Part shown: positions 33,044 to 36,384 of the stretch, piece after piece | Layout: each line of letters begins with the position of its first letter | Position numbering within the stretch: the stretch's first letter is position 1 | Source of the DNA: a bacterium | GTDB lineage: Bacteria; Desulfobacterota; Desulfocorpusculales; Desulfocorpusculum | NCBI GenBank assembly: GCA_037481695.1 | Contig: JBBFLE010000004.1 | Coordinates: 62,001 to 126,000 of the forward strand | Direction: 5' to 3' | Length of the DNA stretch: 64,000 bases | Translations under genes and position numbers: made by a program | Notes under the pieces: model-generated | Databases searched by the model: none | What the model was told of the DNA's origin: nothing | Seen by the model: the letters and a program-made list of their open reading frames with translations, nothing else

Positions 33044-33060
33044 CTGGCACGCCAATTGCT
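33044..33060 (+). promoter_or_regulatory. Sigma-54 promoter
   Basis: CTGGCACG followed by CCAA and TTGCT: TGGCACG at 33045-33051 and TTGCT at 33056-33060. The invariant GG and GC are 10 bases apart, as required, and the match to the -24/-12 consensus is essentially complete. The first downstream start codon is 70 bases on. Transcription would need a bEBP and an upstream enhancer, which I could not identify. Confidence 0.85.
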
Positions 33061-33129
33061 CTTTCAAAGGATCACTCCCTGCCCGAGCTCAATTACGGGC
33101 GCTGGGGAGCCCCTCCCAAGGGGAAAAGC

Positions 33130-34221
33130 TTGCCGCCCATGGAGGCAAGGATTTCCTTGGACAGTGTCGCACATGTGACTGCAGGTGGCGGGACCGTGAC
33201 AGGCCCGGCCTCTTCTGCACCAAAGGCCCCCTGGGGCAGGGCTGAAAACCTGCCTTTTGAGGAGTTCTTGACAAAGGCCGAGACTTCCCAAACAGCTTTG
33301 GGAAATGCTTCTGATGGGGGGTTTAGGCCCTGGGGGGGAGCTCCATATGCAGCTCACGGGCTGGAGGTGTTGCATTGTTTTCCTCAAGGCCAGGCTCGCT
33401 CCTGGCAGGAACAGGTCAGGCTTTACAAGGAAGATCAGCTCCTGGCCCACCCAGGGGGAGACCTGGTGGACCTGCAAGCCGCAAACCCCCTTGAGTCCCC
33501 TCCTCCCCAGGAGAACTTCTTTCAGAGGATCGCTAAGGACCTCTCCGATGCCGCGGCCAATGTGCTCAATTTCTTCAAGGACCTTCTGGGTGGATCCACG
33601 TATAAGTACGTGGACGAAGATCAACAAATTCAGACAGCCAAGAGAAGAGGCCTGGGAGCCACGATCCTGGAATTTTTCAAGGATCTGGCAAGCGGCCTGA
33701 GTTTCGGATTTTTCAGACCGGACGGAGAGCCTGAACCTAAGAATTTCTTGGAACGATTGTCCTTTGCCTGGCAGAAGATCTTTGGGGAAGCCTTGGTGGA
33801 TGATCTGGTTATGGGCGTGCCTTCCTCGGCCATCCATATGCTGGATGATGCTGCCCTTGCCTTGTGGAACCTCCTGGAAGTTGTGCCAGAGGCCACCATA
33901 GGTACTCTTCCTGGGGGAAAGGAGCTTGTGACAACCATTTTCGACAACGGACAGGTGCTCATTGACTACATAACCGACTGCCTGCCTTCAGGGGAAGCCT
34001 GGATGAGGGTCCACGCCTTTGATCTCCAGGGAGGCGAGCTGATCCCACCGGTTCTCTACAATCTGAAACTCCCAGAGCATTACGGCAGAGACACCCGCTG
34101 GTCCACGGTGCGCAACACTCCATTTCGAAAAGCCATAGAGACTGTGGGAAGCCTGCTTGCGGATGTGGCCCTGGCAAGATTCACCACACATAGTCCCAAA
34201 ACGAGCAAGAGGAGACATTGA
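33130..34221 (+). CDS. Uncharacterised protein, first gene of the sigma-54 pair
   Basis: I do not recognise this 363-residue protein. It has no signal peptide and no clear membrane segment. The first 120 residues look disordered (Pro, Gly, Ala). The middle has a short internal repeat: NVLNFFKDLLGG at about 142-153 and TILEFFKDLASG about 35 residues on, followed by a third amphipathic stretch (NFLERLSFAWQKIFGEAL). The C-terminal part contains VVPEATIGTLPGGKELV and a basic tail. A TTG with AAGGGG at 6 bases is the likely start; ATG at 33139 is possible. It ends 2 bases before the LysM-RlpA gene. Export by a dedicated secretion or flagellar route is conceivable but unproved. Confidence 0.75.
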   Translation: MPPMEARISLDSVAHVTAGGGTVTGPASSAPKAPWGRAENLPFEEFLTKAETSQTALGNASDGGFRPWGGAPYAAHGLEVLHCFPQGQARSWQEQVRLYKEDQLLAHPGGDLVDLQAANPLESPPPQENFFQRIAKDLSDAAANVLNFFKDLLGGSTYKYVDEDQQIQTAKRRGLGATILEFFKDLASGLSFGFFRPDGEPEPKNFLERLSFAWQKIFGEALVDDLVMGVPSSAIHMLDDAALALWNLLEVVPEATIGTLPGGKELVTTIFDNGQVLIDYITDCLPSGEAWMRVHAFDLQGGELIPPVLYNLKLPEHYGRDTRWSTVRNTPFRKAIETVGSLLADVALARFTTHSPKTSKRRH

Positions 34222-34223
34222 GC

Positions 34224-34994
34224 ATGATTCCCTTGGCCTTGAGGAAAACCTTAGCCCCTTTTGCCCAAAGAGTCATGAATGGTCTGAGCTCCCAGTTCAA
34301 GAGATTTGCGAGACCGGTGAAGACCCAGACCCTGGCAGCCAAGGCCACTTCTCATCCAAGGGGTCTTGTCATGCGCCAGATGCCGGCATTCTCCGCCTTG
34401 TTGGAGCAAGCTCAGGCATCCAATGACAACAGGCCTCAAGGCGTGGCTCTGGCACAGCTGGCCCAAGGCCCTCCAGACTATCCAAAACCTCAAAGCTCTA
34501 CTTCTCAGCCTCTTCCAAGTGCTCAGGCCAGAAATGGGGCAAAATATATGTTCTACACAGTAAGACCCGGAGACACCCTCTGGTCGCTGGGAGTAAAGAG
34601 GTTCGCAGTGGACCCAGAGGTGCTGGCCAAAGAAAACGCCATAGAGAACCCAAGCAAGCTTCAAGCCGGTCAGCGCATCAGGGTGCCTCTAAAGGCCAGC
34701 TCACCGGAACAGACAGTGGTGGCCAGTTGGTATGGACATGAACACCACGGCAAGCCCATGGCCAATGGCGAGCCCTTTAATATGCACGCTGCCACCATTG
34801 CCCACAAGGAACTTCCCCTGGGCACCAAAGTGGAATTGAAGAATCCAGAGACCGGACAGAAGGTGTTGGCTGTGGTAACAGACAGGGGCCCTTACATAGA
34901 AGGGCGTGACGTGGATCTTTCATACGGCCTTGCCAGGAGATTGAACATGGTGGAAAAAGGGGTGGGAAAGCTTGTAATGAGAGTTTTGGCATAA
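34224..34994 (+). CDS. LysM and RlpA-like double-psi beta-barrel protein
   Basis: This 256-residue protein has a LysM domain (about residues 110-160: YTVRPGDTLWSLGVKRFAV, ending GQRIRVPL) and then an RlpA-like DPBB domain (about 168-256): VVASWYGHEHHGKPMANGE, AATIAHKELPLGTKVELKN, then VVTDRGPYIEGRDVDLSYG. The catalytic-type Asp and His of RlpA lytic transglycosylases can be seen (VTDRGPY and AHKELP). It lacks an obvious signal peptide: the N-terminus is basic and amphipathic (LRKTLAPFAQRVMNGLSSQF). AGAGGAG lies 9 bases before the ATG. It follows the uncharacterised gene and shares its sigma-54 promoter. Confidence 0.88.
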   Translation: MIPLALRKTLAPFAQRVMNGLSSQFKRFARPVKTQTLAAKATSHPRGLVMRQMPAFSALLEQAQASNDNRPQGVALAQLAQGPPDYPKPQSSTSQPLPSAQARNGAKYMFYTVRPGDTLWSLGVKRFAVDPEVLAKENAIENPSKLQAGQRIRVPLKASSPEQTVVASWYGHEHHGKPMANGEPFNMHAATIAHKELPLGTKVELKNPETGQKVLAVVTDRGPYIEGRDVDLSYGLARRLNMVEKGVGKLVMRVLA

Positions 34995-35100: not shown

Positions 35101-36228
35101 ATGGAAGTACTCGTGGTGGATGACGAACCTCAGCTTTCGGAAATCATGGCCGAGTATCTGAGCCGCTGTGGATACCACGTTACCTGCGCCCAGAATGGGG
35201 GGGAGTCCCTTGAGCTGATTCGGGCAAAGTACTTCTCTGTTGTCATCTCGGATATAACCATGCCGGGTATTAGCGGTTTGGAGCTTTTGAAGTCAATCAG
35301 GGAAATCTATCCTGAAACCAGTGTCATCTTGATGACAGGCTCTGCCAGCGCCCAGGCTGCCAAAGAAGCTCTAGAAAAAGGTGCTTTCGCGGTGCTTCAG
35401 AAACCTTTTTCCCTGCAGGAACTGAAAAAAAAGGTGGATCAGGCCGCAAGGCTCCGTAGCATGGGGCCCCCAAAAGGAATCATGAGAGGTTCAAAGAATC
35501 CTGATCATGGGGAGCAGCAGTCATCCAGCTCCCTCAGGAGCAAAGAATTACAGGTTCTTGCCTCCATGGGAGCTGCCTTGGCCTTGGCTGACAAACAAGG
35601 GATTGTTCTGGATGTCAATGATGGCTTCTGCAGGACATTCAACAAGAAAGACGTGCAGGTAAGAGGCAACTCCCTGTGCAAGGCACTGGGCTGCTCTCTG
35701 TCATCAGAGAGCACATGCTCCAATCCCTGCGAAATGTGGGATAGATTCCAAAGAGTTGTAAGACAGAAGCACTCCTCCGGGCCTTTTGTTTGCAGTATCC
35801 CTCTTCAAGGAAGAGGTACCAGGCAACACTTCATTTTCCACACAAGGGTCCTTATGCTTCCACAGGGCAATGGCTCTGGGGCAGGCCAGGAGCGACTGGC
35901 AGTTCTCATGGAAGACATCTCAGAGTTCCTGGATGCAGAGGCCCAGGTACTGGACCCCGGTTGTTTGGGCTGCCTGGGAGAGATAACAAGAGACATAGTG
36001 CATGAACTGGCCCAGCCTCTGAATGCCATCTCAGCTCAATGCCAGCTCCTCAAGTTCAGAATAGAACAACAAGGTGAGTCCTCCAAGGAAGTTGTACTTT
36101 CCAGTCTGGCTGAGCTCCAGAGGCAAACTTCCCGAATGACAGAGGTCCTAAACCATCTAAGATCAGGTTACAGAAACAAAACCCTTGTAGGTCCTCAAGG
36201 GCCCAACCAAGGCTCCTCTGCGCAGTGA
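35101..36228 (+). CDS. Response regulator-PAS-HisKA protein without ATPase domain
   Basis: This 375-residue protein has an N-terminal REC (residues about 1-118): VVDDEP, phospho-Asp in VVISDITMPGISGLELL, Lys in VLQKPF. A PAS-like domain follows (about 150-275), with a cysteine-rich insert CKALGCSLSSESTCSNPC. A HisKA-like helix pair contains His301 (IVHELAQPLNAISAQCQLL), and the protein ends about 65 residues later. No HATPase_c is present in this or the next frame; the stop is clean. It may dimerise with a complete kinase or shuttle phosphate. It heads the signalling island. Confidence 0.87.
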   Translation: MEVLVVDDEPQLSEIMAEYLSRCGYHVTCAQNGGESLELIRAKYFSVVISDITMPGISGLELLKSIREIYPETSVILMTGSASAQAAKEALEKGAFAVLQKPFSLQELKKKVDQAARLRSMGPPKGIMRGSKNPDHGEQQSSSSLRSKELQVLASMGAALALADKQGIVLDVNDGFCRTFNKKDVQVRGNSLCKALGCSLSSESTCSNPCEMWDRFQRVVRQKHSSGPFVCSIPLQGRGTRQHFIFHTRVLMLPQGNGSGAGQERLAVLMEDISEFLDAEAQVLDPGCLGCLGEITRDIVHELAQPLNAISAQCQLLKFRIEQQGESSKEVVLSSLAELQRQTSRMTEVLNHLRSGYRNKTLVGPQGPNQGSSAQ

Positions 36229-36326
36229 AGAACCTAAGCTAGAGTCTGTCCTTACCCCAAATGCTCACCCAGTCCGGTCTTAGGGCCTCTGCCAAGCCCA
36301 AGATGAACTGCATTGACGTGTTGACA

Positions 36327-36342
36327 TGGCATGAAAACTGCT
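36327..36342 (+). promoter_or_regulatory. Possible sigma-54 promoter
   Basis: TGGCATG, then AAAA and CTGCT: GG at 36328-36329 and GC at 36340-36341 are 10 bases apart. It agrees with the -24/-12 consensus except in two positions. The diguanylate cyclase ATG is 43 bases downstream. Confidence 0.55.
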
Positions 36343-36384
36343 ATCAACGCAGCGCAGGACCACTTTTGAGGAGTGAGTGAAGCC

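Follow-up and report, generated by a model that had tools for sequence, protein, structure and literature searches.

A signal-less LysM-RlpA protein and a neighbouring protein of no known family as putative sigma-54-controlled flagellar accessories in Desulfobacterota

Results and discussion

Two adjacent genes, designated P1 and P2, probably encode sigma-54-controlled flagellar accessory proteins that are exported by way of the flagellar type III gate, P2 being the one that would open the cell wall for the rod. The genes lie on the forward strand of a 64-kb window, by which we mean the whole stretch of DNA that was analysed, and their relatives were sought in 395 genomes of the phylum. The sigma-54 dependence and export of both proteins, the catalytic activity of P2 and its action at the rod are what we infer from such comparisons. 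The features to which the text refers are the following:

33044..33060, + strand: sigma-54 (-24/-12) promoter CTGGCACGCCAATTGCT, exact consensus with the top matrix score in the window
33130..34221, + strand: P1, 363 aa, without a known family; the core from about residue 90 onwards to the C-terminus is conserved
33256..33270, + strand: FEEFL of P1, residues 43-47, an FxxxPhi motif by homolog alignment, resembling the flagellar gate-recognition motif
33571..33585, + strand: first FFKDL of P1, residues 148-152, from the sequence
33673..33687, + strand: second FFKDL of P1, residues 182-186, from the sequence
34224..34994, + strand: P2, 256 aa from ATG (258 from TTG 34218), signal-less LysM-DPBB protein of the RlpA type
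34389..34403, + strand: FSALL of P2, residues 56-60, an FxxxPhi motif, present in 23/23 family members
34554..34688, + strand: LysM of P2 (Pfam PF01476, E 1.7e-9)
34713..34970, + strand: DPBB domain of P2, a putative lytic transglycosylase domain (Pfam PF03330, E 7.5e-16; aligned to PDB 4avr)
34803-34805 and 34881-34883, + strand: His of the AH motif and Asp of the DRGP motif in the DPBB domain of P2, invariant in the family

Promoter and gene neighbourhood

A near-perfect -24/-12 promoter some 70 bases before the gene pair had been noticed in a sequence-only reading of this DNA, and it turned out to be exact. CTGGCACGCCAATTGCT agrees fully with the consensus YTGGCACGNNNNTTGCW, is the sole exact match in the window and was also its highest-scoring site in a scan with a matrix based on the general consensus. 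The TTG start codon of P1 at 33130 lies 69 bases downstream, and transcription is predicted to start at about 33070-33072. In the whole draft source genome (G000; the window lies on its contig C4) 23 sites matched with at most one mismatch, only two of them exactly; the reversed pattern used as a control gave 2. Three near-consensus sites fall inside the flagellar cluster. We reject the notion that every sigma-54 site of this genome is flagellar, since pilin-like and other genes carry them too; the other exact site (L056 3572; G000:C15:51571) precedes a type IV pilin-like gene.

The -24/-12 element is conserved upstream of the orthologs of both genes. When 130 gene starts from 10 loci were scored, the five best scores all preceded P1 homologs, as did 8 of the best 10. 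For P2 we scanned the 260 bases upstream of the gene itself or of the leading gene of its operon. A score of at least 9.1 was found in 19 of the 22 scored cases, as against 6.3% of random windows from the same loci; this enrichment is large, though the binomial figure is too optimistic because the genomes are related. Judged by these sites, both P1 and P2 would depend on sigma-54.

As the sequence-only reading had stated, the pair stands just before a chemosensory island, whose genes begin at 35101. The first of them (35101-36228) encodes a receiver-PAS-HisKA protein in which an ATPase domain was not detected. Its counterpart in G001 (L014 12086-13681, 532 aa) runs on into an apparently full kinase domain, so the copy in the window may be truncated. 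Two further sigma-54-like sites were seen in the window. The second-best, TTGGCATTTCTTTTGCT, occupies 1425-1441, about 190 bases before an open reading frame at 1628; the other, ATGGCATGAAAACTGCT, at 36326-36342, is immediately 5' of a GGDEF response-regulator gene at 36373, which suggests that the chemosensory island may be partly under sigma-54.

P2 and its probable role in opening the cell wall

For P2 the start codon ATG 34224 is more likely than TTG 34218. The LysM domain and RlpA-like barrel recognised earlier were borne out by the Pfam matches listed above and by a score above the TIGR00413 (RlpA) cut-off. No C-terminal SPOR domain, a feature of many RlpA proteins, was found when P2 was searched for one, and its PHROG matches were generic LysM and DPBB entries only. 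The AH and DRGP motifs of the DPBB domain, which we take to hold the catalytic residues as in RlpA, are shared with PDB 4avr and invariant in the 19 P2 family members that were aligned. This invariance suggests that activity has been retained, and P2 is predicted to be a lytic transglycosylase. A family profile built from 19 relatives matched at 227 bits or more over its full LysM and DPBB length in 23 of the 395 genomes; there followed a clean gap, below which lay Sec-type RlpA proteins with no more than 170 bits, mostly matching the DPBB part alone.

How such an enzyme might serve the flagellum can be outlined as follows. Like rod and hook subunits, P1 and P2 would dock at FlhB by means of an FxxxPhi motif in the N-terminal region. 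P2 would then travel unfolded through the flagellar gate and refold at the growing rod, where LysM would hold the peptidoglycan while the RlpA-type DPBB domain cut the glycan strands and so made room in the wall for the rod. If a free enzyme enters by way of the flagellar channel, its route alone would place it correctly. Delivered exactly at the growing rod, P2 would replace the missing muramidase half of FlgJ, and for P1 we envisage an exported factor of flagellar assembly or of the envelope.

The FlgJ of the source genome has 131 aa and consists of the rod-binding domain only, so P2 would supply the cutting activity as a separate protein. One might expect to find P2 in those genomes whose FlgJ has no cutting domain. 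This idea is unsupported: in this phylum FlgJ as a rule has a single domain, whether P2 is present or absent, and because such a FlgJ is so common without P2 the distribution gives no sign of a need for P2. G348 possesses both P2 and a FlgJ fused to an M23 peptidase domain, an unusual dual-domain FlgJ (L103 7030-7824). That P2 is absent from the majority of genomes with single-domain FlgJ, and that it stands beside a FlgJ-M23 fusion in G348, would fit a P2 that is exported with the flagellum without cutting at the rod. LysM would give it the wall binding to anchor the P-ring or motor, or it might act in the release of flagella or be secreted to the medium. The invariant His and Asp motifs, with the retained activity they suggest, argue against such a role and we regard it as unlikely.

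Export motif and association with flagella

FxxxPhi is the general form of the docking motif of Salmonella FlgD. In Salmonella a short hydrophobic motif, 36-FLTLL-40 in FlgD, docks the early rod and hook subunits at FlhB (PMC8983047). Such subunits also require small hydrophobic residues right at the N-terminus, the optimal spacing being near 24 residues (PMC8983047). Rod and hook proteins of the source genome contain the motif as FEDIL (FlgE, 42), FQDLL (FlgG, 41), FEQVL (FlgB, 48) and FEKML (FliE, 30). It was present in all 23 members of the P2 family (and in 12/12 representatives), at residues 26-57 between the start and the DPBB-adjacent LysM, in versions such as FSALL, FSSIL, FHGLL, FQAIV, FESLL, FEQVL, FSRML, FTRLL, FAEVL, FAQLL and FQSVL. 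Shuffling of residues gave a mean of 9.1/23 and never 23 in 20,000 trials (p<5e-5, for related genomes). Among the P1 homologs 10 of 11 N-termini carried the motif at residues 28-47, mutually aligned, against 5.9 expected (p=0.0095, with independence overstated as the genomes are related); it was missing in two homologs, L020 and L021. FxxxPhi is a weak motif, and its weight comes only from this conservation. One branch of the P2 family (f7) begins with MIALIP or MVSLIP and has the motif at 26-27, similar to the two-part signal described in PMC8983047. Small hydrophobic residues at the very start of the protein, some 19-24 residues ahead of the motif, are clear in this branch and less so in P1 and P2 of the window.

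In G141 and G336 the gene leading the P2 operon encodes a small protein (about 160 aa) that has an FxxxPhi of its own (FQKIF, FQKLL), and thus P2 there too follows a second export-like protein. These leaders (L136 4410-4877, L137 4446-4925) are directly upstream of P2, have a sigma-54-like site in front and are candidates for a further flagellar export substrate. In one P2 relative (L131 4628-5611) an internal duplication repeats the FxxxPhi segment together with LysM (FESLL, FESSL).

The core component of the flagellar export gate, FlhA, is encoded in 22 of the 23 P2 genomes versus 249/395 overall (Fisher 2.6e-4) and in all 12 P1 genomes (Fisher 0.0036), kinship making both p values overstate independence. 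In G336 P2 lies behind fliL in a run of cheY, cheX-like, cheB and fliL genes, and in G330 a CheX gene is near. The exception is G102, a draft genome without FlhA and Flg_bbr_C in which P2 retains both motif and sigma-54 site; the missing flagellar genes may reflect an assembly gap or a real exception.

For a cell-wall protein without a Sec signal, two explanations had been offered in the sequence-only reading: export by a special route (flagellar, type III-like or a contractile device) or storage in the cytoplasm until lysis. The flagellar type III route has gained support from the motif, FlhA, the sigma-54 sites and the flagellar neighbours. The contractile device and storage until lysis have not, as nothing pointing to them was found in viral contigs for P1 or among the neighbouring genes. 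A related view is that P1 and P2 are cytoplasmic or released by lysis and merely share sigma-54 with flagellar genes, FxxxPhi being part of an amphipathic helix with another role. G102, which lacks flagellar genes, and the service of sigma-54 to other genes would agree with it. It appears quite improbable in the face of a motif in 23/23 members, FlhA in 22/23 genomes and the flagellar operons of relatives; moreover, a peptidoglycan enzyme has no obvious use in the cytoplasm.

P2 and Sec-type RlpA

The absence of a Sec signal from P2, noted from the sequence alone, was upheld by hydropathy. The best 12-residue Kyte-Doolittle mean of its N-terminus is 1.0, compared with the 1.9-3.1 reached by most Sec-type RlpA proteins. 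No signal-like hydrophobic N-terminus was seen in the P2 family members that were read, whereas the other RlpA proteins that were read had one. In a phylogenetic tree the DPBB domains of the P2 family split from those of Sec-type RlpA with a support of 100/99. A single long-branched protein of the Sec type fell on the P2 side (L126 1294-1860, from G109, a genome outside the FlhA-bearing set). It branches within the P2 clade, carries a Sec-like signal without a detected LysM, and possibly represents a return to Sec export after loss of flagella. Notwithstanding the TIGR00413 match, it is very improbable that P2 is the ordinary septal RlpA-type enzyme its database name implies, exported by an unrecognised signal, because it lacks both a hydrophobic N-terminus and SPOR, belongs to a clade apart from Sec-type RlpA and is accompanied by a Sec-type RlpA in G000, G001, G002 and G348.

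P1 and its relation to P2

P1 had been described as a protein without a recognised family, and searches of Pfam, NCBIfam, PHROG and PDB all came back empty. Profiles built on 14 P1 homologs revealed no credible Pfam or PDB relative; matches to PMM and other profiles were at chance level and were discarded. The internal FFKDL-type repeat is real, with two copies (148-152 and 182-186) whose phenylalanines are largely conserved. Two AlphaFold runs with 7 homologs reached a pLDDT of 45 for the full protein and 57.5 for the core, and a Foldseek search with these models gave no hit with E<=0.001 to the PDB or to viral models. We therefore claim no fold. The FlgJ rod-binding domain PF10135 is absent from both P1 and P2. 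A phage origin of P1 was rejected, as P1 was absent from viral contigs and from plasmids and had no PHROG match; no phage or tail genes were seen near P1 or P2.

A profile search found P1 in 12 of the 395 genomes, spread over several families. In G272 and G230 a gene of the FlgO family comes immediately before it and flgL and flgK are its neighbours; the G272 locus continues with cheD/cheR-like genes. P1 lies near a chemotaxis cluster in G091 and adjoins the chemosensory island in G000 and G001. In G038 and G232 (L015 6885-9076, L019 8179-10822) the gene before P1 encodes a conserved protein of some 510 aa; the gene after P1 in G038 is presumably ApbE-like, a name given by reading the sequence.

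The suggested partnership of the two proteins holds in part. Their genes stand side by side in all three source-family genomes examined (G000, G001 and G002); in G348 both are present but unlinked, and most carriers have one gene alone (P1 is without P2 in 8 of 12 genomes). Conserved pairing is confined to one family rather than extending across the Desulfobacterota, and we reject a conserved partnership beyond it.

Comparison with known flagellar wall enzymes

To our knowledge, all flagellated diderms have to make an opening in the wall for the rod and yet avoid lysis. The solutions on record are either to fuse a cutting domain to FlgJ or to export an enzyme through Sec and restrain it by rod proteins, and a review names the localisation and control of separate flagellar wall enzymes as an open problem (PMC7277832). 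If our reading is correct, P2 represents a third arrangement, in which a separate cutting enzyme passes through the flagellar gate. The proteins now named 'septal RlpA' would then include a flagellar branch, readable from sequence by a simple rule (no signal, LysM-DPBB, FxxxPhi and sigma-54), and P1 would add an unrecognised flagellar protein family. The wider proposal is that a lineage of RlpA-fold lytic transglycosylases was re-routed from Sec to the flagellar type III channel in several families of Desulfobacterota, there to act as a stand-alone rod muramidase, with P1 as a new exported flagellar component; for this we consider the balance to be even. No description of a signal-less LysM-RlpA flagellar enzyme was found in the literature searched, the coverage of which was partial.

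Like FlgB, FlgD, FlgE, FlgG and FliE, P1 and P2 have FxxxPhi, are signal-less and appear to be under sigma-54 control in the source genome. Unlike these subunits they have no rod or hook domains and are encoded outside the main flagellar cluster. The DPBB domain of P2, with its AH and DRGP motifs, is that of the septal ring lytic transglycosylase RlpA (TIGR00413; Escherichia coli, Pseudomonas aeruginosa). RlpA itself is a Sec-exported lipoprotein, with SPOR in P. aeruginosa, whereas P2 has LysM, neither SPOR nor signal, and a place in another clade. The dual-domain FlgJ of Salmonella and E. coli combines a rod cap with a GH73 glucosaminidase and is exported through the flagellum. P2 would resemble it as a signal-less wall cutter using the flagellar channel, apparently with early-class export, but is encoded by a separate gene, lacks a rod-binding domain and has DPBB and LysM in place of GH73. 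SltF of Rhodobacter sphaeroides and BB0259 of Borrelia are separate flagellar lytic transglycosylases that accompany single-domain FlgJ (PMC7277832, PMC8517470). P2 would be similar to them as a stand-alone enzyme beside a FlgJ without cutting domain; SltF and BB0259 differ in having the SLT fold and taking the Sec route, while P2 has the DPBB fold and apparently leaves through the flagellar gate.
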